The position numbers and the translations under genes are program-made. A stretch of 64,000 nt of DNA from Paramacrobiotus metropolitanus (taxonomy: Eukaryota > Tardigrada > Eutardigrada > Parachela > Macrobiotidae), in NCBI RefSeq assembly GCF_019649055.1, contig NW_026570319.1, forward strand, positions 372,001-436,000. The letters are read 5' to 3'. Each line of letters opens with the position of its first letter. Within the stretch, counting starts at the first letter, position 1. A model generated the notes under the pieces. The model had not been told where the DNA came from. It saw only the letters and a list, made by a program, of their open reading frames with translations, and ran no database searches. Below, piece by piece: positions 2,711-61,397 of this stretch.

Positions 2711-2712
2711 AT

Positions 2713-4177: not shown

Positions 4178-4935
4178 CTCATTCGACCTCCAACATCCGA
4201 CCGAACCACCGGACAAGGATAACCCCACTAACCAGCCGCTTACTTCCGGAACGAACCGAACTTCCCGACGATTGAGGAAGGCTACCAACAGGTAGCCACC
4301 ATCCTCAACTACTCGGACTGAACGAAAACAGCTCCGAGGAGGACTTCGCAAAGGCGATATCGGCCTCCACAAAGGAGGCGGAGACGGCTCGGAAGTTAGC
4401 CGCTCAGTTCGGCGTGTACGCCAACAACGGCACCGTCGAAGCGTGGCCCGGGATGCAACAAGCACTCGAGGCGACCGACCCAGCCCCTCGATTCGAAGCT
4501 GGAACGTCGGAGGTCGGAACGCAGAAATTGCCCGACCTAAGCAGCGCGAACAAAGCGACTGCGCCGTCCGTCACACAAAGTGACGTAGTACGGCCCGGCC
4601 ACGGAAGTTGGACCGGATTGCCGGTGAGGATAAACTCAACCGAGCAGGCCAGACGATGCCCAAGACGCGGAGGACCGGGACGCCGATTCACGCACCGGGG
4701 CAACAGAAACTTCCCAATGTATCATCCGGACGCGCAACGGATAGATACGCTGCGACAATGGCAGCCATCGACCTCACCGAAGAATCGGAAGGAGAAGTCG
4801 AAGAATGGGAAACAGTCCCATTGGGAGCACAGGTACCCGTTTACTCTCGGCCGGGAGAAGCGGACCTCTTCCAGCCAAAGAGCGACCAGCTAGAACGATA
4901 GCCAGTTCTCGAACATTCCTGAACCTCGACTATAT
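4178..4935 (+). other. Gag-Pol spacer, coding in mixed frames
   Basis: This stretch between the zinc-knuckle region and the protease is open in pieces of different frames (4023-4295, 4414-4893, 4608-4901) and ends with a stop at 4899-4901. Composition is hydrophilic, Pro/Thr/Arg-rich. The piece 4740-4901 is acidic and contains IDLTEESE, which resembles a SUMO-interacting motif; that may be chance. No known domain is seen. Confidence 0.4.
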
Positions 4936-5690
4936 GTGGTCAGAGTGAGGCCAACAGACACCTCAATAGAGGAACGGATACTGGCACAGGCACAACGGTT
5001 CCGAACCGCCAAATTACCGGAGGACGGAGTAGCTAACCGACCTGAGGTACAGGAAGCGGGTGAAGTCGGAGTCGAACTTACACAAAGTTCAACTCAACAG
5101 CCAGCCGACCACGGACCGGTGTCACTAATTCCCATCAAACCAACGATACGGGAAGTAACCTTTGAGAAGGGAACGCATAAGAAACCGAAAACAGTTCGAG
5201 CTTGGACACACGAAATCCAAGTCGGATCCACGCCCACAATGGCGATGTTAGATACCGGAGCGGAGACTTCGCTCATCGAACAACGGTTTTGCGAGAGGAA
5301 CGGTTTAACGATGCAACCCTCGGACATTACACCAAAATACTTGGAGTGGGCGGACAAGTCGCCTTTGTAGTGTCACACTGCTGTACGGCACCTGTAACAA
5401 TGCAGGGCTTTACTAGCCATCACACATTCCATGTCCAGCCGACCGAAGCGGATATCCCAGTGCTACTCGGATGCGACTACCTGCATTCGAAGTTCACCTT
5501 TATTCTTACACCGATTCCAATTCCGGAACAACCGGAAGGAAAGACGGTAGTGCAGTCTATCCCGATACCAGAGGCATCGGACACGGTAGAAACGAAGCTC
5601 GGATTAGTCGGCTTGATCACCCGGCGAACTCCACACGTAAAATCTGCCGCGATTGCCGGGATACGAACCGCACTCTGTTGGAGGAACTAG
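4936..5690 (+). CDS. Retropepsin-type aspartic protease region of pol (frameshifted)
   Basis: The active-site motif LDTGAETS (near 5250-5273) identifies a retroviral-type aspartic protease, the enzyme that cleaves Gag-Pol during particle maturation. The frame stops at 5370, but the protease continues in another frame. There a DIPVLLGCDYL segment (about 5450-5485) matches the conserved C-terminal LLG-D region of these proteases. A single frame change near 5335 separates the halves. The conserved start and end show a complete domain of about 100 residues. It follows Gag and precedes RT, the usual Ty3/Gypsy order. Confidence 0.8.
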
Positions 5691-7968
5691 CACTCCACAA
5701 CGTGATAGAGCACTATCAGAAACGGATACGCAACGGTACACTACGAACGGCAAGGACGGTACTGAAGTCTATCCCGATACCAGAGGCACCCGCTGAAGCG
5801 GATGCCCAGAACCTAGAACGAGTACGACAAAAGTACCGAACTTGGTTCTCGGGAGCTCGACACTTTCTCGACCAACGGACGTTGGAGATGGTGACCACTC
5901 TGCGACAGAACGGAGCGGTAACTTACGAGCAAATACGGGACGCACAACAAACGTGTGAACCTGTAATCGCCCTCATGAACGACATAGAGGACGAAGCATG
6001 GGAATGGGAAGATGAACGAATTCCGATCCATCGACAGTACATGGAATACGGACTTCCCCGTCCCACGACCTTTGGAAATGCCCTGCCAGGAACTAGGCTT
6101 TCAACTTTTGCCTATATGCAGCGAGTTCAGTTGCACGGAGAATCGTCAACGACCGCATTCTGGCAACGGTATGGCGAAGACACCGCTATAACGCGACATG
6201 TTCCCGACCCATTGCCGCCAATTGAGGAGCATACTCCGACCACAGTGCAATTCGTGAGTAGCCCGGCGAAACCCCAGGACGACGTAATCCTGGAGGAAAC
6301 TGATAAACCTTATCAGTGTACCATCTGTAAGGACAACATTGACGGAGTGGTACGGGCCATAAAGGCTCATCACGACTTAACTTGGTCGGACGACAGACCG
6401 TCGTCACCGTCACCTCCGCAACAGGAACGGAAGGTAGACCGCTTTCGGAAGCCCCAACAGACGAGCATCCGATGGCTGAGCGACATAGGCTCACAGCCAA
6501 CCGACCTTGAGAATCAGGATGAAGCAAGTCGACCTACCCAACCGACGGAGCAAGTCGACCAAGCCGAAACGACCACACAGGTCGAAGTCGGCAATATACC
6601 GCAAGTTGGACAGGAAGACGGAACAACCGTCGAAAACGAAGATTACCAGTCGGACGACTCGGATATACAGAGTACGAGTGATTCGGCGGACACAGACTCC
6701 GATAACCGACCTTCGGAAGAATCCGAGGAAGAAGACGACGAAGAATTCGATCTGTCAGTCCGACACTGTAAGACGGATAAACCGAGCATAAACGACTCGG
6801 ATGATTCGTCATCGGAGGACGAAGAACCGACCTACGATGTCCGACTAACCACGGCATTGCGGACTATAGTTCACACAGAATTTATAGTCGAGCAACCGGA
6901 ACAAACCGAACAACCGAAGCCAGTCGACTCCGAACAACAGGAGAACTTGACCAACTTAAGGTTTTGTGGGAATTCGGAGGAGGTAAACCGGAGGAAGACG
7001 ATCTCCGACCTCCAACTTTAGTCGTCCAGCAGTTGTCAACCGAACAACCGACCTTGGCTAACTTAACCGACCAACAGAAGTCGGAGCATTTCAACACATG
7101 GAAGGCACGAGTCGCCAAAATAACGATGATTGAGGAGTTGGACCTGGACAACAAATGCCCAGAAGTCCACCACCTAAAGCTGGATCCCCACATAGAGACA
7201 AAAGCGTTAGACCGACAAGTTGTCTTTAACAGCGAGCGAGTCTCTCTCCCAGCATGGTCAACATGTTCGATAAAGGTACGGACGGCCAAACCAATGGACC
7301 CGAGAAGGCCAATTTACTTCTCCACCCTACAACGGGTAGTCCGACCTATCCGGCCAATCGAAGCCAAGATCGACATCCGACCGACAAACGATACGGCATG
7401 GATAAACATCCAGAACACGACTCACCAAACAAAGGTGCTGAAGAAAGGTGTTCGACTCGGACATATGCAATACGCCGATGTCTATGAACCGGAAATCAAC
7501 AATGCATTCGTCGAATGGGAACTCCCACACAGAGTGGCGAAGACTTGGCCCCCGACTCGGGAAGCAAAGCCAAAACCCCAATTCGAAGTTTTCGAGGCAA
7601 CAGGAGTTCGAGCCCAACGGAAGGTCAAACTCATCCCTCGAGCCGTAACCATGGTAGAAGTCGTCCTGGACGTACCGGTATCCAAGGACCAGAAATTGAT
7701 GTACCTAGGAGAATCCGACCCCAAACGAGACGGAGTCGAATTCATGGACGGCGTAACCAAGCATGACGGGAAACGATTCACCGTCATGGTGGCAAACCAC
7801 ACTCATCGCGAGGTGACCTTACGCAAAGGTGCCCCGATGGGTCGAGCCGAAGCATTTACAATGATGACGGACGACCAAAAGTCGAAGAAGCACGAGTCAA
7901 CACGGCTGAAGTCGAGCAGGAAGACGCGGAATCCCAAGAGGAGCGACGAAGAATCATCGACTCCATGA
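5471..7968 (+). CDS. Long Pol spacer between protease and reverse transcriptase, function unknown
   Basis: About 2.5 kb of coding sequence lies between protease and RT in two frames (5471-7021 and 6964-7968). The first half contains a CTIC pair with a downstream HH near 6318-6373, a possible but incomplete zinc site, and then a very acidic stretch (about 6640-6830) of Asp, Glu and Ser. The second half (about 7130-7860) reads as a folded, beta-rich domain with repeated patterns such as LPAWSTCSIKV and RVVRPIRPIEA; I do not recognise it with certainty. Most Ty3/Gypsy elements have only a short linker here, so this spacer is unusual. The overlap near 6964-7021 is a frame change. Confidence 0.5.
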
Positions 7969-7981
7969 ACTTCGGTAAAAC

Positions 7982-8990
7982 TTAACCGACGAGGAACTAG
8001 CCAAACTGAAGGCCGTTGCATGGGATTACCGGACCGTATTTCCGACCTCGAAGAAACCTTACGGAGACGTCAAAGGGGTAACACATACCATTGATGTCCA
8101 AGGGGCGCAGCCGATTAAGATGAACCCCACCAGGACAAGCTGGAAGGGACGGGAATTCATCCAGAAACACGTACAGGTGATGCTCGACCAAGGAGTCATC
8201 GAACCGTCATCGGCTGCATGGAGCTTCCCCGTCGTCTTAGCCGCGAAACGGAACGGAGACGGCACGGTAGGAACACGCTTCTGCATCAACTATATCAAGT
8301 TGAATGCAGTTACGAAAGAACAACTACCCACTACCGAACCCGGACGAACTACTGGACCGATGTGCCGGAATGGAATACTACGGCAAGGTAGACTGTCAGT
8401 CCGGCTTTTGGCAAATCCCCATGGATGAACAGTCCAAGGACTACACGACCTTCGTAACACCCGAAGGCATGTGGCGATTTAACCGTATGCCGTTTGGAGT
8501 CTGCAACGGACCAGCAACTTTCCAAATGCATATGGACAAGATCACGGCATCAGCTCGGAAGAAGGGTGTGTTCGCCTACATTGACGATATCATCTTCTTC
8601 GGCAAAACGTTCGAAGACTTCCTTGAGGCTTTCCGAGCAACCCTCGAATGCCTCCGTGATGCTGGATTTACGGTCAAACCCTCCAAATGCGAGGTCGGAA
8701 CGGACAGACTGCTGTTCCTGGGACATGTTCTTAGTAAAAACGGAGTCCAGACCGACGATGAGAAAGTGGCCTGTATTGCAGAACAAAGCTGCCCGAGAAC
8801 TGAACGGCAACTCAGGTCGTTCCTCGGACTGGCCAACTACTATCGGAAATTCATCCGAGGATACGCTCAGAAAACTTCAAAAATGTACGAGCTCCTCCGG
8901 AAGGATAAGAATATCAAGCTCGATTGGACGGAAGCCCACACGGCTGAGTTCAACGACATTAAGAAGGCGCTAACCGAAGCACCTGTACTG
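7982..8990 (+). CDS. Reverse transcriptase domain of Ty3/Gypsy-type pol (frameshifted)
   Basis: The polymerase domain is recognised by its ordered motifs: WSFPVVLA with FCINYIKLN (near 8215-8310), a YGKVDCQSGFWQIP motif A (near 8380-8420), FNRMPFGVCNGPATFQ (near 8477-8528) and the catalytic YIDDI (near 8577-8591). The thumb-like region with FLGHVLSKNGV follows. It copies element RNA into cDNA. The frame changes once near 8310, between the first motifs and motif A, with no loss of conserved residues. The pattern FLGLANYYRKFI and the order RT-RNaseH-integrase place it in Ty3/Gypsy rather than Ty1/Copia. Confidence 0.9.
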
Positions 8991-9417
8991 GCGAAGTTCG
9001 ACCCGACCAAGAAAACCGTCATCGAATGTGACGCAAGCGGAGCCGGACTTGGCGCGGTGATCTCACAAGACGATCACCCAATCGCCTACGCCAGTCGAGT
9101 CCTACGTGGACCGGAACTCAACTATGGAGTTACCGAATGGGAATGCTTTGGCCGTGGTATGGGCCGTGCAGAAATTTAAACACTTCATCGACCACGGACC
9201 ATTCACCGTAAGAACGGATCACCGAGCACTGCAGAACCTGCTCCGATGCGAGTCAAACCGACCTGGCATCAACCCTCGACTAACGAGATGGGCACTGGCT
9301 TTACAAGGACGGGACATAACCATCGAGTATAAGCCAGGAGTTTTCTGCGACAATGCGGACGCCCTGTCGAGATGGCCACTCGAACGTAGTGACGACAAAG
9401 ATCCACACGAAGAGTTG
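8991..9417 (+). CDS. RNase H domain of Ty3/Gypsy-type pol (frameshifted)
   Basis: The motif TVIECDASGAGLGAVISQ (near 9017-9070) carries the first catalytic Asp of the RNase H that removes the RNA strand during reverse transcription. It is followed by IAYASRVLRGPELNYGVTEWE and, after a one-base frame change near 9150, by AVQKFKHFI and VRTDHRAL with the later Asp. Both halves are well conserved apart from the frame change. It sits directly C-terminal to RT, as expected. Confidence 0.88.
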
Positions 9418-11095
9418 GACCAAGTCCCCAACTTCGAGGACTTCAAGGACGAAATTAAGGTCTGCACAATACGGACTCTTAGACGTCTGAAGGCAAATGC
9501 CTCAAAGAAAAGGAAGAAGGATCTGAAGGAACCACCGAAAATCCCCCTTCCACCGGTTCTCCCCGGATGCAATGTCATAACCGACTGGGACGACTTGAGT
9601 ACCACAGAGGTCCGAGTCATTAATATCCCAGCATCGGAGACACCGGAACCGACCATTCGGACCGTCAACACGGCGGAAGATGACGAGTTGGAAGTCGAAA
9701 AGACACTCCCACCTCCACCCGAACCGAACGTAGAACTTCGGAAAGCGCAGTTGCGAGACCCACAACTACGCAAAATCATTGATGAACTGGAACACCCAGA
9801 GAACCTTGACCATAAGTCGCAACATCTGGAACATTACCAGATGGCGCAAGGAGTCTTGTACAGATTGAAGACCATCAACACAAAGTTGGAACGGTGCTTC
9901 GTCGTACCACTCTTTATGCGTAATCAAATCATCCGATCACTCCACGATGGAAAAACCGGAAACCATTTCGGACGGGAGAAGACGATCGAAGCGCTGAAGC
10001 TGCGTTACTATTGGCCACGGATGAACACCGACGCCATTGCCTACATTGAGAAATGCCGACAGTGCATCATGACCAATAAGCAACGACGCCCACCACCTGG
10101 TAAACTCCAGAAGATGGAAGTCGGTGAAGCCTGGTATCGCATCTACGCGGACTTCAAAGGTCCTCTTCCTCGGACGGAGACGAAGGGATACCAGTACATC
10201 GCAGTGGTAACCGACCAGCTGACCAAGTTCACCGTAGCCCGAGCAACGAAGACGAACACCGCGAGGGAATTCGAACGGTTCTTCGTCAAAGACGTCCTCT
10301 AAAGTACGGAATGCCGACCTTCATCCACTCGGACAGAGGACACACTTCACAGCGAAGACGTTCGCTAAGGTCGCACGGATCTTCGGCATCCAACATACGC
10401 TCGGAACCGCCCATCATCCGGAAGGACAAGGACAAGTCGAACGGCAAATGCAAACGATTTGGGACGGAATAAGGAAGTTCTGCGATGTAAAAGACGGACA
10501 CCGATGGCACAGAGCCTTGGATTATGTCGTCTGCGGAATGAACCGAGCCGTCCATGCCGCGACTAAGTTCTCACCGTTCTACATGTTGTATGGTCGACAA
10601 ATGACCATGCCACAGGACATAGTGGCCGGAACGAATACACCGGAAACCTTTACGGATAAGGAACAATATATCCGACGGATTAAAGAACGACTTCAACGCT
10701 CGCACGAGATTGCTCGCATCAACATTGATGAAGCGTTCGAACGGAACGCCGAGCACTACAACAAGAAGAAGTCGAATCCGACCTTCAAACCGAGGGACAA
10801 GGTAACGGTGGAATTCCCGACCAAGGATCCAGCTCGGAAGGAACGCTATGACGGAGTTTGGACGGTCATCAACTACGTTGGCCCAAACAACTTGTTCCTC
10901 CGATGCGAAGACGGACGTGAAGATACGGTAGCCGTCGACCGAGTTAAACATTGCCGAGTCGAGACAAGTCGACCAGCAACTCGGTCAACTGGCCCGGTAG
11001 CCGACCCGACAGAAGGGGAAAGCTACTCGGAAGCCGAAGAAAAAAACGGAAGAAACCGTCGCAAATCCTTCGAATCCGACCAACGATGCGGATAA
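9418..11095 (+). CDS. Integrase of Ty3/Gypsy-type pol: HHCC, DDE core and C-terminal domain (frameshifted)
   Basis: After an ~300-bp linker, an N-terminal zinc domain is visible: histidines in HDGKTGNHFG (near 9943-9972) and the cysteine pair CRQC (near 10054-10065). The catalytic core has Asp in IYADFKGP (near 10150), Asp in HSDRGHT (near 10332) and Glu in GQVERQM (near 10438), a complete DDE triad. The C-terminal part has an FKPRDKV segment like that of other integrases. It inserts the cDNA into the genome. The frame changes near 10300, between the two aspartates. No chromodomain is recognised. Confidence 0.88.
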
Positions 11096-11741
11096 AACCG
11101 AACCGAAGGTGAAGAACAAGCGAGGTCGACCTCGGAAGAAACCTCCGACCGACTTCGAGACACCGGCACTGAAGGAACTTCAGAAGCAAGATGTGATAGC
11201 TGCCGACCCAGCACCGACCTCGGAGGAAGTCGACGAGCACAAAGCTCAGCCGACCACCGAGCAACCGAAGAAGTCGGATGATAAGTCGGAAACGCCGGTC
11301 CAGCCAGCCAACCAACTAACAGAGGAACCGAAGTCGGCAACAAAGCCAGCTCGGAAAAAGAGGACGGTAAAGCAAACCGACTCGTCGGCACCGACCACAG
11401 AGGCCGTTGTAGCCGACTCGGCAGTCCAACCGACCAAGCCAAAGCGCAAGTATACAAAGCGGAAGGTCGACTTACCTAGTACATCGGCGCCGACCACGGA
11501 AGTCGTAGCAGCCGACCAGGCAGTCGAACCGACTAAGCCGAAGCGGAAATACGGAACAGCTAAGAAACCAAAGCTGACAGCACAACAGATGCTGGAAGAA
11601 ACAGAAGTCGCTGAAGATGAAGCCCATAAGGAAATCCTTGAACGAATTACCGAAGGACGGGCGGACTCGGAGAAACCAGTCAAAACAGCAAAACCTAAGA
11701 CACCCAAAACAGCAGTCACAACAGAACAGACTCAGTCATAG
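11096..11741 (+). CDS. Basic Lys/Pro-rich C-terminal tail after integrase
   Basis: A 210-codon ORF (11109-11741) in a frame different from the integrase frame. It is low-complexity and Lys/Pro/Thr-rich, with three similar basic units of the type KPKRKY (near 11442, 11541 and variants), each preceded by a PTTE-like unit. This looks like a histone-H1-like or AT-hook-like tail produced by internal repeat expansion. It is probably the end of Pol, reached after a small indel near 11095. A role in chromatin binding is inference only. Confidence 0.5.
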
Positions 11742-11917
11742 GGCCATAGGCGTAAAACTTAGAATAAGTTTTAGGTAGCTTAACAGTAGCCAGATATAGA
11801 TGGACCTTTGGTGTCGAAATGGAACCTCTTCAGTTGACCGGAACATCTTCAGTTGAATGTACGGGAGTTGGTAGAATTCTAACGCGCCGTATTTCCTTTC
11901 CTTGACAGCAAGCGACA
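11742..11917 (+). other. Non-coding gap before the 3' ORFs, with possible splice acceptor
   Basis: No ORF is seen. The stretch ends with a pyrimidine-rich tract and TTGACAG just upstream of the next ATG at 11918. This could serve as a 3' splice site for a subgenomic mRNA, as used for accessory ORFs downstream of pol in some elements. Only the motif is seen; use is unproven. Confidence 0.3.
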
Positions 11918-12863
11918 ATGTCAGGCCGTCACCGACACGACCCACCTTCCAGCGGATCAAATAGCGGACGTAGTGGCAGCGGATCGAACCGATCACAGCC
12001 CTACCCGACTTCATACACGAGTCATCGCTCGACATCGCGATCGGATAATTCGCGGTCGGCCACACAGACGCCTTTACCGCAGACTCGTACGGAAGAGCCC
12101 CGAACGGAAGCCTTTACGGTGGACTGCCAACAGTGCATGGACAACGCGACAAGGGACAACAACAGAATGCCCTGCGCGCTGTGCATCGTATCCTTCACGA
12201 ACGAACGAATTTCCGGCACCGGAGCGCAACACCGTGCTCAGGCGGCGGCACTTTACCTAAACGTTGTCGCTGGCAATTTGAGCGCATACCGGTACTTGGC
12301 CGGCAGAGAATACTTGATTAATCAACTGGAGTCATATGAACAGGACAACGGCTACAATTCAGCGACAACGAGCTCGCGACCCGAGATGGGAAGAAACTCG
12401 ACCACCAGTCCTAACAAATAGGCTGTTCGAGTACCGTCAGATGTTGGACCTGCAACGTCAACTTGACGACCAGAAGAAGATAAAGGAGGTCGATAGGAAG
12501 ATCGCCACAATGCGAGTCCATCCACCACCGACCGACTTCGAACCGGAAATAAAGATTCGGGTACAGACACCCACAGGGTCTCCCGACAGTCGGAGAATAA
12601 CTCACAATACGCGATGTTTTCGTCGGAGATCCGAACCGACCGATGACCAGCGCATCTATAACGATGATGATGAATATGCCGGACGGAACTCAACAGCCAG
12701 TTACCTTCACACCGGCAACTCAGGAACAGTTGATGGCAATCCCACACAGGGCAATGCCAGTGGTCACAGGCCCGTCAACTGTTTCTCAGCAGATTCCTCA
12801 ACCCGGAATCACAAATCGCGCTCAACAGCAGCGCCGACCGAGCAAAAACGTTGCGGGACATGA
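11918..12863 (+). CDS. Accessory ORF 1 downstream of pol, CxxC-x12-CxxC zinc-type motif
   Basis: Starts at the ATG at 11918. The first 60 residues are Ser/Arg-rich and probably disordered. They are followed by a C-x2-C-x12-C-x2-C pattern (CQQC ... CALC, near 12127-12186) that could bind one zinc ion. The frame ends at 12421 and the sequence continues in the overlapping frame from 12336, with a helical, heptad-like stretch (LQRQLDDQKKIKEVDRKI) and a Pro-rich tail. Neither part shows signal-peptide or transmembrane segments, so it does not look like an envelope gene. Function unknown. Confidence 0.5.
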
Positions 12864-14254
12864 TCTTAGACACCGGATCGGCCCAGTTGACCTTCGAGAC
12901 AGAATCGAAGCGCAACGAGCCGTTATCCATGAAGCAGGAAAGGAGCCAACCAGAGCTCCACCAGGAAACGTACTGGATCTGGAGAAACGGGATCGGACTT
13001 ACGGTCGACTTAACAAATAAGTCGAAACGTAACGTCATCCCACCTGAACAACGGCCGGAAGCCCAACAAGCGGAACCGCCGGCCGAAGTCCAATCTGAAC
13101 TGGCAGCTCAACAGGGAGCAGATGGACGTCGACGTAGCCGACCAGATGGCACAACTGCCACAGGTGGAAGTGCCGATCCGAGAAGACCCTCGCTGACCGA
13201 GCTCGACAACAAGGAATCGAGGTCGTCATGCCACCCTACCGAAAGGACGAACCACATTATGAACGTCATGAATTACGAGGAACGGTACCGACCACAAATC
13301 TGGCGGATGGTAGAAAACCTTCGTCAATTCCTCGTCCGATCCGGATACCAGGCGCTGTTCGAACAACATCAGTGGCGGTCCGACTTCAACATGAACGCGC
13401 ACACAGCGCCGAATGTTGAACACCCGTACACCAGATCGAATGCGTTGCCGTCGATGACCGACCCGGTCTTGCTCAATGTACCATTGTACAGCCCGGACGG
13501 AACACGTGCGAGCCAACTAGGAGCTCGGGAATACTCCCATGACGAGTTGGAGAGTGTTGCCCAGTTCGTCATCACGGACGCACACCCAGCCTTTGTAATC
13601 ACCGCGGCTCGGGCAGCACTGGATTTAACCCAGTACCTTCCGGAAGGGAGAAGTCGACATGGCCCAGGACGGAGCCACGGCATTCCTGCGATTCATCTTC
13701 GCAGCTCGACTCGGCAATTACTTTTGCCATTACACCTGTACGGACTGTACCACAATGAAGCGATACCAGCAGCTGTGGAAACCCTCGTAGCCCAACTCGG
13801 CACACCAATGAGAAGTGTTATCCTAGCTGTCTGGATGCGTGACTTGCTGTACACCCACGAACGGTATGCGACAAAGTATGCCTTTCGTGAGGATCACGTA
13901 GATCCCAGCGACGATGCAACCCGATTCATCAGCTGGTACCGCGAAAAGAAAACTTTGCCTAGCGGATTCAACTCGTCGCCCTACGAACCTTGGATGTCGG
14001 ATGACATAGCACCCGGCGCACGACCGTTCGCGCTGCGGCTCCGCAAACAAGCGGCCAAGGAATCGAGGAAGAGCAGAGCGGAGCGCCCAGGCCAGGAAAC
14101 AGATGAGACCGACGAGATGTCTCAACGGAGCGGCCCGGCGACTTGTAAACCTAGGGACCCGAACATACGGCCACATAACCGACCTGGCCCGGACGATGAT
14201 GAAGAAGAAGATTACTTCGGCGGCGATAAACCCGTCGAAGTTCCACTCAGTTAA
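12851..14254 (+). CDS. Accessory ORF 2 downstream of pol, 467 codons, function unknown
   Basis: Open from 12851 to the stop at 14252-14254. From about 13258 it has an ordered, mainly helical look, with repeated Tyr, Arg and Trp (ERYRPQIWRMVENLRQFL and similar), and ends in a basic stretch followed by an acidic Asp/Glu tail with YFGG. No membrane helix or signal peptide is seen, so it is not an obvious envelope protein. The first ~130 codons may be a different frame of the upstream ORF. It lies in the position where some large Gypsy elements keep an extra gene. I do not recognise a family. Confidence 0.5.
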   Translation: MRDMILDTGSAQLTFETESKRNEPLSMKQERSQPELHQETYWIWRNGIGLTVDLTNKSKRNVIPPEQRPEAQQAEPPAEVQSELAAQQGADGRRRSRPDGTTATGGSADPRRPSLTELDNKESRSSCHPTERTNHIMNVMNYEERYRPQIWRMVENLRQFLVRSGYQALFEQHQWRSDFNMNAHTAPNVEHPYTRSNALPSMTDPVLLNVPLYSPDGTRASQLGAREYSHDELESVAQFVITDAHPAFVITAARAALDLTQYLPEGRSRHGPGRSHGIPAIHLRSSTRQLLLPLHLYGLYHNEAIPAAVETLVAQLGTPMRSVILAVWMRDLLYTHERYATKYAFREDHVDPSDDATRFISWYREKKTLPSGFNSSPYEPWMSDDIAPGARPFALRLRKQAAKESRKSRAERPGQETDETDEMSQRSGPATCKPRDPNIRPHNRPGPDDDEEEDYFGGDKPVEVPLS

Positions 14255-17096
14255 GATCGAGCTCCCACACTGGAACTCGATCCCCCATTGGAATAACTTT
14301 AAGGAGGCATTGCCGAGAAACGGCACGGTCGAGAACCGACCTTCCGACTGAGAAACAGTCTAGCTAAGAATCAGCGCCGTCGAGAACCGACTTTGGAATG
14401 GACACTTTTCTTCAGTTCTTTTCACGGAAACCGACCAACCATGTACGCGGCGGACGTCAACGACGATTTTGCCAGAAAAGCCGACTGCACAAGTCGGCCG
14501 GATTCTTTGGTCGGACCCGGAAACGCGTGGTTAGACCCGGGTATTTCGGCTCTTTCACCGTACCGGTACGTCCCCCAAGGAATCCCCTGGAACGAACTGG
14601 GCAATCGACCCCAGTTCACCAGCCTGGCAAAGACAGATCGTAACCACATCTGCTAACAAAGCAGATCGTCAACCACGTTCTGCGACCATCGGAGCCAACA
14701 GAAGCCCCAATCCGCGTTACATGGAGATCGATACTCCGGCCAACCGACTCCGGAGAAGAAACCGAGAGGATTACGCTAACATGGCGCGAAACACGTGACT
14801 GCGCGCGTTTCACGCCATGTTTGCCAAGCACCCGTGGCCAACTTCGGAACCGGGTAGCCGAGCAGCCTTCACCATTGTAAACAGCGGAAATCCCTCGGCC
14901 GAGCCGCCAACAGTGCAGGAAGACTCGGATTTGACTAGGTACGGGAACCGACCACAAAGGTCGACTTCGTACTTTGCCCATAACTGGGAGACATAATGGA
15001 TACCGCTGCGCAAGTCGACCACAAAGGTCGGTTGTGCAAGCCGATCACAAAGATCGGTTTTGAAAACTGTTCGACCTGTAACGACGCAGATCGTTAGAAC
15101 CACGACTCGCTACCTTTAGACGATCACACAGATCGACGGAGTATTTGGTAGCCGACCAACAAGAAGTCGACCATGGACGGAAGCTGGCAGTAGCAACGTG
15201 GTAACTTAACCGGATTCTCCGTTTGAATCCAGACCTACAGGCTCTGTACCTGGAGATCAACCGCAGTCTCCCCGGACGACATCGGGTAAACCAGCCGATT
15301 CACCGGTGACCACGACTACGCGCGTCTTCGAACGTGCTGCCATTCCCTGAAGAGGAACAGCGACGGTGATTTGGATACTGGTGTACCAACGACTCCGCCG
15401 CGACCTGCTTCCCCATGTCTCCAATGGAACATCCTAGGCAGACCGTGTTAGAATACGCGATCTGCACCCTCTTAATGAACCCCGCTGACAAGGATCATGC
15501 GGCCGCAACAAAAGTGGCAGCATGGCCTGTCAGCAACGAAAATTCCCCGTGGACATGAGTCGTCTACCCCAACAGAAGCGGCTAGGCGTCACAGGTTCGC
15601 GACAAAACAGAATGGAAAATCGGATCTGACGACCTCAGGGACTTGCATGTGCATGAAGTTTAAACCAAAGAGCTCGGCTCGGCAACCGGGGCCACAAAGA
15701 CCCTTAGCGTTGTGAGCGAGCGCAGTGCATGATGAAACGCCAGTCAATCGGCCAACAGATGCCGGAGGAAAACCTTACCTCGCAGGACTGGGCGACCCAG
15801 AAGCAAGCAATTCGGATTGACCGACCTCAACAGTAGCTCGGATCCGACCTGGAGTTCACGTCAGAGATCACAGAAGGAACGGAGTTGTGCTGCCGAACAT
15901 CCCTCTGCCAGTCCGAACTGACCGAAGGATGTCCTGACACTACGGACCCGGCCAACTGTAGCCGAACGCACAGAACTCCTAAAATGAAGTCAACAACCAC
16001 CAGATGGAGGTCGGAAGTAAGCGACAACAGCTCGGAAAACCAACCAGAAGTACGAAATCGACCTCTCAGTGGAAGAACTTACATTCCCGGCGGATAGACA
16101 CAAAGTTTATCCGACCTTGGGAAGTCGGAAAATAGCCGACCTCCGAACTCGGACATGGATATCCGACCTCAAGCCGAGGTCGGAAGTGACCGTACACAAG
16201 TCGGTAGGGTACGACAACAAGTCGGCAAAGACATTCAGAAGTCGAGAACCGACCTCCTAACGGAAAAATCCGACCTTCGGACGGATGGAAACATAGTTCA
16301 TCCGACCTTCCGAAGTCGACTATAACCGACCACATGTCGGAAGTCGGCAACTTAGTCAACACGACGGAAGAAGAACGACAGATATCTGCGGTGGACGAAT
16401 TCGACTTGAAGGAACTTGTTTAGCCCTACATGGGCATGTTATTGCAGGTTAACCCTAGTCGACCACTGACGGACAGGATAACCGAAGTCGACTGGACACT
16501 TCCATCGCCGAAACTCATAAATTCCGACCGGACCTTCGAGCCAGTTCGACTCGGATTACTACAAACCAGGCTCGTGGTAGCAGATTGAACGGTTGTAACC
16601 GACCACTTTTGAACGGAACTGCTGTACATGACGACCACACAGGCCGCATGACTCACATACAGCTTTTTCCGACCTGGACTTTAGCAATTCGGAACATAGC
16701 CGAATTCCCCTAGCCGCCGGTCGACTTACCGGTAGGCCGACCTTGGTCAAACCGACCTCGGTTCTATTCCCCATTCAGAGAGGATGCCTCGGCATTTGCA
16801 ATTGCAACAGTGCCTCTCTATCCCGAACGGACGGATACGAGTCGGAAGTAAGTGTTTAACCGTGCTTATCCGACCTCGGTGAACGTAACCGGTTACGACG
16901 GGTAACCCGGGAACCGATGCCCCAGACCCAACTTACCGGATGAGAGTGGACAGGAGACCCCGTGGAGACTCAACCGCCCCGTGGACGTCATCCTAGTCGG
17001 AATAGGACCCCCGGACAGATTTTTGCATTTTTTTAGCATTTTTCCTAACAAACGGAATTGTATTTTTCTAGTTCCATCTCTTTGACAGATCTGTTT
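14255..17096 (+). other. Retroelement 3' untranslated region, rich in short interrupted palindromes
   Basis: No long ORF. The plus strand stays T-poor until about 17020 and then turns abruptly T-rich. Between 14940 and 15140 the motif CGACC-ACAAA-GGTCG and variants (CGATC-ACAAA-GATCG) occur at least four times, and related CCGACCT/AGTCGG pairs recur to 16400. Each can form a small hairpin. No clear polypurine tract is seen directly before the candidate LTR. Confidence 0.5.
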
Positions 17097-17890
17097 TGTA
17101 ACCCCTTTTGCTCACTGGAATTGTGATTAAACTTTATTTCATACTTTCTTTCGCGCTGTATACAACTTTCATTACACTTTTCTTTCACATTGTTCTCCGT
17201 TGCCAACAGAAGCAAGAAGCCAGCCAACAGAAGCAACACCGGTCCAACGAAACGCCCGAGCGGCTTCCGGATTTTTCGGCCGTGAGTGGCTTCCACTCAT
17301 GGGTTCGGAAGTGAAGAAGGGACGGTCGACCAGACACCGGACTCCCACTGCCAGAGGACGCGTACCAGCGACCCCACATTGGGTCCGACTGGAGAGTTGT
17401 GCGGTACTGGTGCGGTACTGAGTCGGACCATCCTTCGCAGGAGCTCGGATTCCCGCCCAGAGGCATGTCAGAGGCACATGACTGCGCCTGGTGCATACGG
17501 CCCACCATGGACGTACTTGCACTCATGCTTGCCATATCGCCTCTCTCGCTGTACGTACGTGTGCTGCTGCACTGCACTCATATCCGCTGAAGCGGATATA
17601 TGCGGCGCACACTGAGCATACTTGCTCTCTCGTCCTCTCTGCATGACTCAGCGTACGCTCGCGTTGGATTGAGTCCAGTCTGCGCATCATCACACAGCTG
17701 ATGGCACACAGCACGTGCTTGCCGCCAGTTGCTTTTTTGACGCCTTGACGAACGCTCAAGAGCTCTTCTAGCATTCACTTGCTTGTTAGCCATCAGTGCT
17801 TTGTTTTGCTTTCCCTGCTATTACGCAGCATTGTTCCCTTTATTTGTACAATAAAGCACACTCGTGATCTCCTCGCGCTTGCCTGTTACA
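17097..17890 (+). repeat. Candidate 3' LTR of the large Gypsy-type element
   Basis: The stretch starts with TGTAAC and ends with GTTACA, a perfect 6-bp terminal inversion of the TG...CA type. It contains a TATA-like GGATATATG (near 17594) within a perfect 9-bp-arm palindrome (17580-17599), and a poly(A) signal AATAAA near 17850, about 40 bp before its end. That order (promoter, poly(A) signal, end) is as in an LTR. The matching 5' LTR lies outside the window, so identity cannot be proven, and the upstream side lacks an obvious polypurine tract. Confidence 0.4.
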
Positions 17891-18535
17891 CGGTATAAAT
17901 GTAATAATCCGAATAATAATAAATTTTGTTACGATGTGTCGATTCGTATCCACCTAATAATTCCGGTTCGCTGCGAGTTCGGGACAAACTGCCCATCGAC
18001 AATACCGTATTTAGCTGTACGAGAGCATTATATTTATTTGAAATTTATCATTTAAAATTTTTTGCCATAATAGCAGCGCATTAATTCTTAGAAATGCCTG
18101 TTTGACGTGGTGTTGCAGAATGCGAAGCAGCCCCCAGGCAATCGGTCAAACTGAAAATTCGCCATGTTTATTAAATCTTATTAAACCGTATTAAATTTTA
18201 TGCAAGTGCTGCGCTAAATTTTATGTAAGTGCGCCCATCAATCATCCAGAGTTATTCAGTTAACTCAAAATTTTTCACGAAAATCTCCCAATAAATTACT
18301 TTCAGCCAAGACAAACAAACATTAAACAGAGCTGAAACAAAAAAAAAACGAAAACCAGATAAACAGAAAGCAACCAAACTGACCAATGGCCAAACACATC
18401 CACCCGGCAGGTTTCATTACAAATCCGGAAGCGCAAACTGCTCTCCATCAGAGAAATCATTCAAACAGTTTTTTTATACTCGACGTCACACCATCGTGAA
18501 AACAATTATACCGACTACAAAAAGCAAAATACCTC
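17891..18535. other. AT-rich intergenic stretch, nothing recognised
   Basis: AT-rich sequence between the retroelement and the end of the GMP synthase copy. No ORF, repeat or RNA gene is seen. It probably includes the GMP synthase 3' UTR. Confidence 0.5.
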
Positions 18536-19633: not shown

Positions 19634-19640
19634 CTGTAAC
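19634..19640. repeat. 7-bp target-site duplication, left copy
   Basis: CTGTAAC directly before the left terminal repeat of the P-like element; the identical 7 bp follow the right end at 24952-24958. Confidence 0.85.
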
Positions 19641-19739
19641 GAGTGCACACTATGTTATTGTGCAGAAGTGGAATTTTAATCAATTTTATTGCTGATTTTA
19701 CTGCCATTGCACCATCTGTGGACCCGTTTATCCACGTAG
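19641..19739 (+). repeat. Left terminal inverted repeat of P-like element
   Basis: 99 bp, perfect reverse complement of 24853-24951. Imperfect pairing continues to about 19766. This is much longer than the ~31-bp TIR of the Drosophila P element. Confidence 0.92.
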
Positions 19740-20114
19740 AAGCGCATAAGGGGGACAGCATGGCGACAGGTTCTGGATTGAGTTTATTGACGCAATAGCT
19801 GCAGACAGCGACCGATGAAGTAAGTACTGTAGTAAGAACTTACAATTAATTTAATACTTCTATCGAAGTTAATTAAATTTTAAGCTGAATTTTGTACAGT
19901 TTTGTAAACTGCCGCAGTTGCAAAAGATGTGAGATGATTGTTAAAGTCAATTTGTACTTCAGCATTGCATCATTATGTGGCCAGCATTAGATCATTATGA
20001 CACAATGTCATTATCTCATGGCGCTTTGAAGAGGAACACGGGTCGGTGCAGACTGTGCAGTCCCCGTCGTTAAACAGTATTCCAGAGACTGAAGTGGAAG
20101 AGCACCTACTTGTT

Positions 20115-23100
20115 ATGGAGACAACTTCTTTGGGCTATGCCACTGATGGTAGGTAGACTTAAAATTATGACGGTATTTATAGCAACAATACTTCTCGAGC
20201 ATTCTAATAAATACTCGTAGTCTCGTACGTAACCAAACTACAATAGCATTCTGTACAGTGTAAATGTTCGCTTTCTAAAATAGTCGGTCTGATTTATGTA
20301 TTGCTGCTCGTCATTCTAGCTATTGCAGATTAATTAAAATTTGTCGCGCTCCTTGATGTACACTACGATAAGCGCTAGGAAAACTATTTGCAGGGAAACT
20401 AGAGACCTGCTGTGCCGTTTGTTTGAAATCCCCATGCGCAATGAATTACGGCGTCCTTACTTGCGATTCGTGCAGAAAATTTTTCAGGACAAACTGCAAC
20501 AGGCTGGTGAGTGTATGGCTTTCATGCATTTATAACGCTGTTGCTACCTGTCTTATTTAGAAATTGAAATGCAAAGGAAGAAAAGGCGACTGTGTGGTGC
20601 AAAATGTTTACCAGCCATGCAGTTCGTGTCGTATGAAGAAGTGTCGGGCACTTGGTATGGACCTTTTGGCTAAACGAAATGTACACCAACAACTGGACCG
20701 AGCTACCCTTGAATCGAGGCTCATCAGTTTGCGGAATCATCGAACTCCCAATGTTTATGTACTGAAGGCTGTCAAGGCTGTTGTTCGCAAGTGCGAAAGT
20801 GCGGACGACGTGAACAAACTGCTTCACGCAGTGGAAAACGGAGAAGTGGAGGAGACAGAATGTGTGCGGTTTCCACACAAGTCCATTAAGGTAACGAATA
20901 ATACTTTTAATTCAGATGTTTTGAGTTTTGCATTTATTTGTATTTAATTTTATTTTCGTTTCACATTTATGACTGTTTAGATCGACAAACATGAACATCT
21001 TAGTCATGTGCTTGTGGCTAAAGCGTTTCGCTGGAACCGAGTCAGTGAAGATAAAGTCGTTTCTTCGCACAGCTGCAAAGTTGATCCCGGATATGTGTGC
21101 ATTAATCCGTACCATTACCGCAACAAGAAGCAAGGACCAGCTGGAACTGTTTGCGTTGTTACTAACTGCAACTTTTCTACAGTAATAAATCCCACTGTTG
21201 GATTTTTTCGACTGCCGGACAGAGAACAAAGCAGAGAGCGGTATCTGAAATTTTTCTCCGCATGTGCCCGACAAGATCTGGACAAATCGGGTTTCAGGAA
21301 GCATCACCGAATTTGCGGAAGGCACTTTTTGGAATCCGACTTTAATATTACGTATGACTTTAAATTATCTGTTTGTATTAATTACTAGTTTTTATTTTTT
21401 TAGTGGCGAAAAGCGAATGCTAAACGAATCTGCGCTTCCGACTCTCTACATGCCTAAGCCAATTAATAATATTTCGCGCCGTCGGGATATTGTTCGGCTT
21501 ACCCAAGAGGAATCAAAAGAGCACGAGAAAAAGCGTTTTTGGAAATCTTTGTTGTCTTATAAGTACCAGTGCGTGATCGGCAGACCGGAGTGGAGGCGAC
21601 TGCTTTGGAGTGATTCGGTTGTAGCTTTTGGACGCATGCGCATTTTGTCCACAGAAACCCTCGAAGTTGCGGCGGACACCTTGATTATTCGCGCAAATTT
21701 TACTGCACAGCTGAAAGTCGGATTGCACTTTGTGTCTAAGGAAGTATTGGATCGCTTAGTAGGAACGGATGTAATCGCTTGCACCCGCAGCTTGCAGACT
21801 GTATGTGATTTGGATCCAGCACTTTTTGCGCTGCAAGGCCTGCAAAACCAGATTGATGCTCAGTGCCAACACGCGATTACCTGCTGTAAGCAAGTCATTC
21901 AAACTCTTGAAATGGAGCAAGATGCCGAGCATGTGGATACCGATAATGCGTTTATAGAGGAAGAAATAGAGGAAGACTGTCAACGCCAGCAAAAATTGTT
22001 ATGTATTTTCCGATTTGCTACGGAGTTACTTGAACATTCCCTTGTGAAAAGCCGACACGCGTTGCGACATTCTGATAACCTGCTTCGTATCTGCGGAGTA
22101 TTTCGAAGTATATCTACAGCCGCCTATGTGTATTTTCGAAATTTTTTGTTTGGAATTTTACCTCACGTCAGTTATTTACGTGACTGTTCGGCTGGTAATG
22201 CTTTAAGCGACGGAATCCAGGAGGATAATCTCAGAAAGTTACAAGCTATAGCTGAATCTCTGGATGACAAACACTTGGATGTTGAAATTATCAGTGATCA
22301 AACCTTCACTGACGAAAAGCTGGAATATCGGGGAGGAGAAATTATTGGTGTAGCCACAAATCAAGATGAAATCGTTGCAGCCAAGCATGTACTGCTGATA
22401 ATTTTACAAAGCTTCACTGGTAAAGTTCGGAAAATTGTAGCGTTTTATTTTGTGAAAAATCTGAAGGGAGCGGAAATGGCAGATATTTTGGAAAGAATTC
22501 TTGTTGAAATTGCCTTAAGAACAAAGTTTCGGGCTCTGGTTTGGTCTGCAGATAATGGAGCTGAAAATATGGGATGCCACTCACACTTTATTACTGATAA
22601 AAGCCAGTTTCCTTGGAAATTCCCACACCCTTGTGTAAAAGGCGCGTATGTTTACGTGTTATTGGACATAATTCATTTGCTAAAAAGGATCTGGACAAAT
22701 TGTATCCGAGAAAATAATTCATTCGTCATTGAAGTAAGTAATGAATGTATTGAAGAAACATTTAGACAGGTGCTGTCTCTCATATAAAATTAAAACGTGT
22801 CGTGTCCCTGTAATATTTGTTTTTTCACTCGTACTTTTAGGTTGGATGTCATAGAGTGGATTTAACGTTGCTGCTTCAGATCTATGAAATTGAACGCGGA
22901 TGTGTGGTAAAAAACGCTCCTGATTTGACAGCAAAATTGTTTTATCCAAATGGATTTGAAAAAATGGACGTTTCGAACGCAGAAAAAGTTAGTACTTAGT
23001 ATACACATTAGAAATGTAGTTTGAATTTGGGACATTTTTTATTTTCTCTACATGTGCCTTTGTAGATTTTCTGTTCGGACCGCACCTTAGGAACCCTGAG

Positions 23101-24751
23101 GATGTTAATAGTAGATCAAGATCATGCACTCTTTAAGGCATTAGCAGAAATCCGTAAAGAATCGGCGGAGCAGTGTGTAAATGGCCTGAAAGTGTTAGCG
23201 TGGTTTATTGAAACTGTAAGAAAAATTGTCATGCCGCTTACCGTTCTAAGCCCGAGACAAGCGGCGCACCTGAAGCAGCCTTTGTACGAAGCGCTCACTC
23301 TGGAGAATATTGACAAAATATTTAGCGTAAGTTTTTCTTTTGTTCTAATATCACGGACAGCGATGGTTTATTCAGAGAAATTAACTAATATTTAACTTTC
23401 AGGAGATGAAGCAAGCTTTGTCAGAGTTGCAGCCGTCTTCTAACTGGAGAAAATCTTTGCCAAAACCTACATGGACTGGCCTGCACGTTACGGTATACGG
23501 GTCCGAAGAAGTGGCCAGGCGACTTTTAAATTCAGGCTTCCAGTTTGTTCTGCCCGGTAAAATGACCAGTGACCCAATAGAGGTAATTAATAACAAGAAA
23601 ACCAGTTTTTGTTTCATCTTGTCAAGAAGTTTCAGTTTATATGCATTTATTTATATATCATTATGTAATACGCATGTAATACTATGTATTTATTTATGTC
23701 TTTTGTATTTATTCATGTTTCATTTTATCAGATTGCTGATTTGCAACTGTTTTTAATCTTGCAAAACTATTTTTGTTCGATTTTAACAGAGGCTGTTTTC
23801 GACATTTAAATACGGCTCCGGAAAGGTGACAGTTGGGAAAGTCAAAGAAGAAGTTAAAAGGATGGAAACACTGCAGCACCTTACGGGCACTACTAATGTT
23901 AGTCGAATGGGGCGCCAAAAGCGGAAAAATAATGGAGTGAATTTTTCAACTTCCCCGCTGAAGAAAAAACGTAGACTGGACCAGCCACTACGTACTGCGG
24001 CTTTTAATTTTGAAACAGAACTCAATTACTTGCGCTCGCTTGGAGATTTTTCTGTTCAGTCGCCGTCCGATATTTTTGGGGAACTGCAGAATTTAAATGC
24101 CGAGCTGTGGACTTCAGTTCAACTTGTCACACTAACCTTTGAAAATCCGGTCACACTAAGCAGTTCCAAGAAAGGTAGAAGAAATGCATAGTTTAGAAAT
24201 ATCTATAGTTATTATTTTTGTATTTTTCAGACCTTGTCACTACTGGGTTGACTGATCTGGGAGGTTACATCGTTTCAAAAATTCAGAAAGGAAAATTTTC
24301 CTGCACCTCTTGCAAGGCCGGTATTGGCAACATGTTTGGAGTGATTTTTTCGGAGAGTGGCGGATTAGTCACGGCACGGTCGCGTACTGATTTTGGTGGT
24401 TTAAGCTTGCCATGTCCGCAACTAAGCGCGCTGTTGCAGTATGCACTTGGATTTTTCGAAAAGTTGCAAGAGATTAATGATTTTTACAGAGGTGATCGGC
24501 ATTTGGAAAGAGCACTCAAGTTGACTCTGTTAAATATGGAATTACATAGCTTTCATCCGCTTGGTGATATTTGTTTATGCGATCTTACGAAATATTTAGA
24601 GTACGAATGTTTGAAGCGTTTTTATAATACTGCCTTTAAAAATGATGTAAATGAGCGCCGAGCACTTGCTCTGAAGAGAACATACGGTGCTCGAAAAGCG
24701 GTACCGATGTCTACAGATCCCAGTAAGTTGAAAAAATTAAAGCAGAATTAA
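20115..24751 (+). CDS. Chimeric P-type transposase: nuclear-receptor fingers + SMAD MH1 + THAP + RNase H-like core
   Basis: Ten exons: 20115-20148, 20394-20506, 20561-20890, 20981-21351, 21404-22733, 22841-22987, 23066-23326, 23403-23582, 23790-24174, 24231-24751. All junctions are GT-AG with matching phases, giving 1,223 codons. (1) Residues 17-82 form a nuclear-receptor DNA-binding domain: C18-x2-C21-x13-C35-x2-C38, then C53-x6-C60-x8-C69-x2-C72 and CSSCRMKKCRALGM. (2) Residues ~112-209 are a SMAD MH1 domain, with AVKAVVRK, HVLVAKAFRW and YVCINPYHY; zinc ligands C150, C191, C199 and H204 are all present. (3) Residues 217-299 are a THAP domain, C217-x4-C222-x48-C271-x2-H274, ending ALPTLYM. 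(4) The transposase core has candidate catalytic D581 (SDQTF), D666 (SADNGAENMG), D704 with H707 (LDIIHLLKR) and E922 (SDPIERLF). The first ATG is provisional; an upstream exon is possible. Substrate DNA is presumably the 99-bp TIRs. Confidence 0.88.
20408..20653 (+). other. Nuclear-receptor-type DNA-binding domain coding segment, split by a 54-bp intron
   Basis: The first finger is in exon 20394-20506 and the second in exon 20561-20890; intron 20507-20560 lies between them, phase 0. The first-finger pattern C-x2-C-x13-C-x2-C with NYGVLTC and CRKFF fits the nuclear-receptor signature except for the last Arg. The second finger has one residue more between its first two cysteines and one fewer before the second pair than the usual x5/x9. 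The P-box reads CDSCR where steroid/thyroid receptors have CEGCK or CGSCK. Confidence 0.88.
20747..21130 (+). other. SMAD MH1 domain coding segment
   Basis: Spans the intron 20891-20980. The order helix (VLKAVKAVVRK), Cys (ETECVRFP), HVLVAKAFRW, Cys (SHSC), Cys and His (VCINPYHY) follows SMAD MH1 throughout; C-x4-H at the end is exact. The DNA-contacting beta-hairpin between FPHKS and HVLVAKAFRW is several residues shorter than in receptor SMADs. MH1 domains bind GTCT/GGC-type sites in SMADs. Outside SMAD and NFI proteins the fold is rare. Confidence 0.85.
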
Positions 24752-24852
24752 AACTCAATAGTTTCTTATGATAGAAAAACTGAAGTAGTGATTACTAATT
24801 CCAAACGCCGAGCGGGAAAGGCTAGTCGCGATGCTGTCCGCCTTGTGAGCGG

Positions 24853-24951
24853 CTACGTGGATAAACGGGTCCACAGATGGTGCAATGGCAGTAAAATCAG
24901 CAATAAAATTGATTAAAATTCCACTTCTGCACAATAACATAGTGTGCACTC
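24853..24951 (-). repeat. Right terminal inverted repeat of P-like element
   Basis: 99 bp, perfect reverse complement of 19641-19739. Confidence 0.92.
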
Positions 24952-24958
24952 CTGTAAC
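24952..24958. repeat. 7-bp target-site duplication, right copy
   Basis: CTGTAAC directly after the right terminal repeat of the P-like element, matching the copy at 19634-19640. Confidence 0.85.
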
Positions 24959-28760: not shown

Positions 28761-29900
28761 GTTGCTGGTATGGAGTGCATTAATATAGTATTACATATAT
28801 AGATATAGATATACATCATCGTAACAGTGAACTTCTGTATTAATAATTCCCTTTTAAAAGTAAAATTTTAGTTTTAGTTTGTCAAAAATATGTTCGTGAA
28901 AATTGGTTTAAGTTATTTCTTCAATGCTACCTAAACAGTTTAATTGCTTTTTACAGTAATGTCCAGTTTTAAAAACGGTGGAGTGAATTTTGTGACCCAT
29001 TAAAAGTTATCAATAACTTATTATCTACAAGGAGAACACGGCGACAACCAGTCAATAACAACATAAACAGGAATAGTGAAATTCAGCGAAACCGTTATCG
29101 ACAGAAACAAAACGTGAAAATGGTCTTTCATAAAAGAAAAACGAAAACTCTGACGCTGGGATTTAAAAACGTTTAAACGATCGCATGTATGGTTAGTTAC
29201 TAATGATATCTATAATTACACCTTTTGTAATTTGGATTTGAATCGGAGAAAATTTCCTTAAGTTTCTGTTTGCAATTAGGATTCGTTGGCTAGAAAACTG
29301 CTGATTGGCTGTGGGTGGGGTTCGTTATAGCGTTAGGTCTACGAGGAGCAATTTTCCCGTCAGCCGCGCGTCATTTAGAATGTCGTCTTCAAAAACTTTT
29401 AACTTTTGTTTCTTTCTGCGTTAAAATTTGTATGTGGAACCCTGAAAAATTAAGAATAGTTAAGCGGGCGAGCGTGGCGAGCCCGCGTTTCTAAATGAAG
29501 ATATTTGAGTTTCTGTAACGGAGATTACCCATTACCTTTGGGTCACCGCGTGACCTTTGGGTAGCCGACGATTTTTTTCGTGATTCCTATACAATTCAAC
29601 ATGCTGAGTCGAACTAAAGTACTGGGGAACCTCGAACCCGGGTCCCCGAGGTCGCCACTATGGCTTTCACTGAACACACCCAGTTTGAAATGCTGAGGTA
29701 CGCGCACTGCACACAGTTCCTCGAGGTGACTTTATGTTATGCATTTTTAAAGCACTTTAAAAACGCAAGTTTAACCGTTCGCGTTAATCCAACTCAAAAT
29801 AACCAGATTAGATTTTTAAACAATTTTCAAACGCTAGCTTCAATTATTTTGTAATATTCCTTTACATTTTAAAAAATTTCTAAATAATTTTAAAAAAAGT
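28761..29900. other. Non-coding stretch
   Basis: No convincing gene. A GC hairpin GCGGGC...GCCCGC lies near 29464-29486, with ACCTTTGGGT twice near 29534-29570. A short T-arm-like GGTTCGAGG on the minus strand near 29630 has no matching tRNA fold around it. Confidence 0.4.
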
Positions 29901-30507
29901 TCTAAATAATTCTAAATAATTCTAAATAATTCTAAATAATTCTAAATAATTCTAAATAATTCTAAATAATTCTAAATAATTCTAAATAATTCTAAATAAT
30001 TCTAAATAATTCTAAATAATTCTAAATAATTCTAAATAATTCTAAATAATTCTAAATAATTCTAAATAATTCTAAATAATTCTAAATAATTCTAAATAAT
30101 TCTAAATAATTCTAAATAATTCTAAATAATTCTAAATAATTCTAAATAATTCTAAATAATTCTAAATAATTCTAAATAATTCTAAATAATTCTAAATAAT
30201 TCTAAATAATTCTAAATAATGCTAAATAATGCTAAATAATGCTAAATAATGCTAAATAATTCTAAATAATTCTAAATAATTCTAAATAATGCTAAATAAT
30301 TCTAAATAATTCTAAATAATGCTAAATAATGCTAAATAATGCTAAATAATGCTAAATAATGCTAAATAATGCTAAATAATGCTAAATAATGCTAAATAAT
30401 GCTAAATAATGCTAAATAATGCTAAATAATGCTAAATAATTCTAAATAATTCTAAATAATTCTAAATAATGCTAAATAATTCTAAATAATTCTAAATAAT
30501 TCTAAAT
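29901..30507. repeat. 10-bp minisatellite, about 61 copies of TCTAAATAAT
   Basis: Nearly perfect tandem 10-mers; the only variation is T or G at the first base. The first ~32 units are all T. After that G and T units form blocks: 4 G, 3 T, 1 G, 2 T, 12 G, 3 T, 1 G and about 3 T. This indicates expansion by unequal exchange or slippage in groups. A short flank (29880-29900) has decayed copies. Confidence 0.97.
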
Positions 30508-61360: not shown

Positions 61361-61397
61361 GTTTTTGCTCCCACTACTACCAACGGTCAATTCTACA

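Follow-up and report, generated by a model that had tools for sequence, protein, structure and literature searches.

The 64,000-nt window analysed here (positions 372,001 to 436,000 of contig NW_026570319.1 from the tardigrade Paramacrobiotus metropolitanus) contains a complete transposable element, at 19641–24951, enclosing a gene whose predicted transposase has three kinds of DNA-binding module in a row, nuclear-receptor fingers, a SMAD-type MH1 domain and a THAP domain, ahead of a P-type catalytic core. On the strength of this core the element is placed in the P superfamily. We consider it likely, on sequence evidence, that a complete and probably recently mobile cut-and-paste element of this superfamily took up host-type DNA readers, and that it would use them to read its own long ends. 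An earlier note on this DNA had given the extent as 20115–24751; this holds for the coding span but not for the element, which is larger and has inverted repeats, target-site duplications and relatives elsewhere in the genome.

The transposase and its domains

Ten exons on the + strand, spanning 20115–24751, splice into one frame of 1,223 residues with no internal stop, and all nine introns are GT-AG and short (52–245 nt), so that the earlier proposal of a single protein from consistent exons is borne out. Exon 1 (20115–20148) contains the start codon and residues 1–11, and exon 2 (20394–20506) the first receptor finger (C18, C21, C35, C38). The second finger (C53, C60, C69, C72), a linker and the N-terminal half of MH1 (C150) are encoded by exon 3 (20561–20890); the C-terminal half of MH1 (C191, C199, H204) and most of THAP (C217, C222, C271, H274) by exon 4 (20981–21351); and the end of THAP and the RNase H N-terminal domain, with D581 (22296–22298) and D666, by exon 5 (21404–22733). 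The spliced frame continues through exons 6 (22841–22987) and 7 (23066–23326), exon 8 (23403–23582), which ends with the presumed catalytic E922 (SDPIE), and exon 9 (23790–24174), to exon 10 (24231–24751), which includes the stop codon. The 16 zinc ligands proposed earlier (eight in the fingers, four in MH1 and four in THAP) all have the expected residue.

Domains were called by a Pfam scan of the whole protein, with matches compared to the curated score cut-offs. The zf-C4 match covers residues 17–83 (E 1.5e-8; 35.4 bits, cut-off 21.1), MH1 residues 118–206 (E 5.1e-12; 46.4 bits, cut-off 25), THAP residues 217–297 (E 1.1e-10; 42.5 bits, cut-off 23.9) and TNP-like_RNaseH_N (PF21787) residues 552–674 (E 3.8e-8; 34.2 bits, cut-off 24.6). 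The earlier note had named random-like scores in the finger and MH1 regions as the outcome that would tell against it; zf-C4 and MH1 instead exceed their cut-offs. When residues 1–302 were compared with PDB, 103 sequences matched, and among the best 60 the top ones were glucocorticoid-receptor DNA-binding domains (E 1e-9); all eight finger cysteines align with that receptor. Neither a ligand-binding domain nor an MH2 domain is among the Pfam matches of the 1,223 residues at E up to 1; by these matches, only the DNA-binding modules of the receptor and the SMAD appear to be present.

The catalytic core can be followed to the Drosophila P transposase through P0001, a THAP-bearing, THAP9-like database protein of 943 residues with P-type Pfam domains. 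P0001 matches the full protein at E 1.3e-8 and in turn matches P transposase (6p5a) at 5.8e-9. Along this chain (with a phmmer alignment for the step from P0001 to P), D581, D666 and E922 align with the P triad and are presumed to form a D/D/E catalytic triad. With the RNase H domain above its cut-off, this agrees with the P/THAP9-type core recognized at the outset. A D-x2-H-x2-K-x4-N stretch is also common to the window protein and P0001. No GTP-binding insertion domain was matched by Pfam in residues 306–1223 at E up to 10, and a profile built from two sequences (A1) hit nothing in PDB but THAP chains, through the THAP of P0001.

The fusion, read from genomic exons, could in principle be an artefact of misassembly or of wrongly joined exons from neighboring genes. 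The domain junctions, however, fall within exons: finger 2 and the first half of MH1 share exon 3, the second half of MH1 and THAP share exon 4, and the end of THAP and the core share exon 5. Separate transcripts therefore cannot produce the fusion. Exon 4 scanned on its own matches both THAP (4.1e-8) and MH1 (1.2e-6). Exon 3, which carries one finger only, gives a zf-C4 match under the cut-off (E 0.012, 16.5 bits) and, for its MH1 half, no MH1 match. A single pair of repeats, itself flanked by a duplication, also encloses the whole gene, and the domain order recurs on contigs C89, C20 and C1 and partly on C2, C29 and C33. With this recurrence an artefact is hardly credible, and misassembly and wrong splicing were rejected as the source of the fusion.

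Element ends and short derivatives

The element is bounded by terminal inverted repeats of 127 nt, at 19641–19767 (+ strand) and 24825–24951 (− strand), which are 95% complementary and identical over their outer 84 nt. The same seven bases, CTGTAAC, adjoin both ends as identical target-site duplications (19634–19640 and 24952–24958). Exact 7-bp duplications were found at all five large elements examined. These include internally deleted copies on C89, which is without exons 5–7, and on C2, both 96–99% identical to the window element and each with an exact duplication of its own. The description of the sequence as a mobile element is well supported by this combination of features.

Much shorter copies are also present. 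Beyond the three large copies, at least 56 repeat-like places were listed, with at least 23 pairs close together, 0.46–0.66 kb end to end. Eight short pairs were read at both ends; the 7-bp duplication is exact in six and has one mismatch in another. In an alignment of 20 termini from 11 elements (two from the window, one each from C89 and C2, and 16 from eight short elements), separate blocks are kept: AGTGC, TGTGCAG-x-AGTGG, ATTTTATT, TGATTT, and CATTGCACCAT-x-TGTGGA.

Short derivatives such as C33:1226800–1227439 and C152:201339–201985 fall into two terminus sub-types, GAGTGCAATGC-like and GAGTGCACAATAAT-like, so that several transposases may have been their source.

Relatives that keep the fusion

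Relatives on C20 and C1 were scanned on exons joined here. The C20 lineage has zf-C4 at 1.5e-14, MH1 at 7.3e-13 and THAP at 1.2e-8, and the C1 lineage near 2.056 Mb has the same three at 2.8e-14, 5e-13 and 4.7e-8, all above the Pfam cut-offs. At the C33 locus fingers are found at 6.2e-16 and the middle of the element is missing; the locus on C29 is a close but decayed copy of the one on C20. A second core on C1, near 1.373 Mb, has no N-terminal part in the stretch read. All eight finger cysteines are kept in four lineages, and the residues of the receptor recognition helix vary from lineage to lineage.

Between the window element and C20, synonymous difference (pS) is 0.70–0.79 across nine blocks, that is, saturated. 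Nonsynonymous difference (pN) is 0.289 in the fingers, 0.306 in the linker and N-terminal half of MH1, 0.244 in the C-terminal half of MH1, 0.185 in THAP and 0.229 in the exon-5 core; ratios of pN to pS are unreliable at such saturation, and the gap between the two was used instead. Saturated synonymous sites beside low nonsynonymous difference indicate that the fusion is old and was under constraint, in every one of its modules.

MH1-THAP transposons and host loci

A second group of transposons, on C5, C370, C21, C155 and C17, encodes MH1 followed by THAP. In the two that were scanned, C5 and C370, both domains are above the Pfam cut-off and are followed by a P-type core; inspection by eye of those upstream frames that were read showed no finger module. 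The inverted repeats of the C5 element are alike at 115 of 117 nt, with the duplication CCGTAAC, and those of the C370 element at 147 of 148 nt, with the duplication GTTGACT. The C5 element has an in-frame stop close to its end.

That these relatives have repeats and duplications with no fingers seen could suggest that fingers and MH1 are passengers in the window element, or regulators of its own expression, and dispensable for transposition. This is improbable given the constraint described above: nonsynonymous difference in the fingers and MH1 is held at 0.24–0.31 despite synonymous saturation, and the eight cysteines are kept in four lineages.

The same type of MH1 also occurs outside the transposons, at three host loci (C12:1829418, C12:1816662, and C166:70390; L032, L059, and L062) where a THAP-like frame and then a PR/SET-like region, recognized partly by eye, come after it. 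By Pfam, C12:1829418 has MH1 at 5.6e-13 (joined exons), THAP at 9.1e-8 and a PR domain at 1.3e-18. For the other two loci, two regions each were scanned, giving MH1 at 4.9e-12 and THAP at 4.4e-7 for C12:1816662, and MH1 at 4.9e-9 and a PR domain at 6.2e-9 for C166:70390. Judging from domain order, each locus would be one gene; to our knowledge, this order of domains has not been described in the literature.

With three such loci in the host, it is possible, though we lean against it, that the MH1-THAP pair was born in a host gene of this MH1-THAP-PR/SET type and taken ready-made by a transposon. In a THAP tree, however, the two host rows do not cluster with those from transposons (the trees are rooted too weakly to decide the matter), and the spacing between MH1 and THAP in the host loci differs from that in the transposons.

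THAP domains are also concentrated in one part of C17: of the 150 THAP matches scored genome-wide (180 candidates), about 80 fall in a cluster of about 200 kb at C17:1202474–1406957, often several per frame. One frame (L112, 1,256 aa) has nine THAP stretches. The cluster resembles a tandem array of genes with many THAP domains each, whose products might repress P-type elements.

Origin of the modules

In all eight transposon rows (three with fingers and five without), in two of the three host MH1-THAP loci, and in the SMAD4-like gene on C2, MH1 is interrupted at one and the same position of the alignment by a phase-0 intron with GT/AG ends. In the third host locus, an acceptor a few residues downstream of this place was needed. 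Human SMAD4 presumably has an intron at the matching codon. Other SMAD genes in the genome are arranged differently: in the two R-SMAD-like genes read (C34 and C4) the MH1 intron is about nine residues later, and in the SMAD row C12:1832082 MH1 lies within a single exon. In an MH1 tree the eleven transposon and host-fusion rows stand apart from four SMAD rows with support of 100/99; within them the grouping of the three fingered rows has weak support (59/52), and two of the host rows have long branches.

The finger intron, in phase 0, is three residues ahead of the third cysteine pair. It was compared with 15 rows that represent a part of the host receptors (63 exon-level receptor matches were listed): one, on C23, has an intron at the same place, five lack an intron within the domain, and in the other nine it is at a different position, which in six is after CEGCK. 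The C23 receptor ranks just sixth of 17 host rows by pairwise score to the transposon fingers, so sequence similarity lends no support to the intron place they have in common. The transposon fingers cluster together, away from the host receptors, both in a tree that includes two rows with guessed junction residues (L085 and L086) and in one that leaves them out. Of the two animal DNA readers that the earlier note took to be captured, MH1 has support for this in the intron place and phase of the host SMAD4-like gene; the fingers have less, with one receptor in 15 sharing their intron place and no donor named by the tree. Since MH1-THAP is common to other transposons and to host loci, the MH1-THAP part may have preceded acquisition of the fingers.

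Proposed mechanism and history

The history favored here would begin with MH1 coding DNA, together with its intron, coming from a SMAD4-type gene and being joined to THAP; the receptor fingers would have been gained later, ahead of the split of the finger-bearing lineages. The three zinc modules would jointly read the long, block-wise conserved inverted repeats, with fingers and MH1 adding specificity to THAP and helping to pair the element ends, while cleavage and insertion, with a 7-bp stagger, would be the work of the RNase H core. Long ends in which several distinct blocks are conserved are in keeping with a transposase that carries more than one DNA reader. Copies with internal deletions, as well as the 0.5–0.7-kb derivatives that have the element's ends, could also be moved by this transposase.

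A different role for the added domains would be to steer insertion to host regulatory DNA or chromatin, with the ends read by THAP alone. The finger and MH1 families both read regulatory DNA, and in Drosophila P THAP is the domain that binds next to the ends (PMC7776569). The sequences of the added domains make steering rather unlikely. The hairpin through which MH1 contacts DNA in SMADs has residues replaced in the transposon MH1, with three lost, which together with the variable recognition helix of the fingers suggests that the ancestral host sites are unlikely to be still read.

Several observations, besides the lack of a receptor donor in the tree of transposon fingers and 15 host receptors, weigh against the reading of end-binding by old, constrained modules in a P-type element. 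The frame of the C20 relative shifts at two places. The C89 copy, already without exons 5–7, has lost finger ligand C21, and its fingers differ from those of the window element by three nonsynonymous changes and one synonymous. One of the eight short derivatives has no matching duplication, and structure prediction for exon 5 from two sequences gave a mean pLDDT of just 35. The duplications are 7 bp in length rather than the 8 bp described for Drosophila P (PMC7776569).

More broadly, tardigrade P-type transposons may be vehicles that take whole animal DNA-binding modules and introns from SMAD4-type and receptor genes, keep them constrained through deep divergence, and exchange MH1-THAP with host chromatin genes (MH1-THAP-PR/SET), the many-THAP cluster of about 200 kb perhaps being a host answer. 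This is offered tentatively, as an idea somewhat short of an even chance. Transposases are known to donate DNA-binding domains to host genes; in the present case it is a transposase that contains host-type domains, which have been under long constraint and one of which retains an intron footprint. It makes testable both a gain of end specificity by added readers and domain transfer in both directions, and provides a natural chain in which receptor fingers and MH1 are adjacent.

Surroundings in the window and genome

At 1–18000 of the window, long frames contain stretches that by eye resemble reverse transcriptase, RNase H and integrase, and the A-over-T skew is strong; this is probably a large Ty3/gypsy-type long terminal repeat (LTR) element. 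A tandem array of an AT-rich 10-bp unit (63.9 copies) lies at 29866–30507, and a 457-aa frame starting with a SAP-like motif, again by eye, at 61359–62732 is perhaps part of another mobile element. The host genome has 19 matches to CAHS-like proteins, a tardigrade type of protein, and the strongest is 66% identical across nearly the whole query, which points to a tardigrade as host. A nematode host had also been considered; an Rfam SL1 search bearing on it gave no match, in the controls as in the genome.

Comparison with known systems

The earlier note knew of no report of a fusion of this kind, and our searches agree: among the titles listed by searches of open-licence papers, none describes a transposase with MH1 or receptor fingers. 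In the protein database, the full-length query matched only P0001 among 7,999 scored candidates, residues 105–300 matched none of 235, and an alignment with a second element matched one of 6,206 (P0002, a Cooperia MH1 protein, with 7% of the query covered). The database seems to hold few animal proteins, so this absence is weak evidence.

The receptor and SMAD modules each resemble their namesakes in part. As in nuclear receptors there are two C4 fingers with eight cysteines; unlike them, the protein lacks a ligand-binding match, and its recognition helix varies between lineages. MH1 has the fold signature and zinc ligands of SMAD4-type SMADs and the intron place and phase of the host SMAD4-like gene, but the protein has no MH2 match, and its MH1 is shorter, by three residues in the hairpin and also before the last zinc ligands.

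The likeness to Drosophila P and THAP9 is in THAP ahead of an RNase H core, D/D/E in matching columns via P0001, inverted repeats and target duplications. Drosophila P has an N-terminal THAP as site-specific reader, 31-bp repeats, 8-bp duplications and the triad D230, D303 and E531 (PMC7776569). The window element differs in having fingers and MH1 ahead of THAP and repeats of 127 bp rather than 31 bp. Its core places it within the P superfamily, and its duplication length, repeat length and domain make-up outside the Drosophila P family proper.

Transposon-derived transcription factors and host-transposase fusions offer a further parallel, with DNA-binding domains common to transposons and host genes. 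The direction usually described is from a transposon domain to a host gene (PMC10027918), and the text of that paper contains none of the terms “MH1,” “nuclear receptor” or “tardigrad.” The window element differs from such fusions in having host-type domains inside a transposon.

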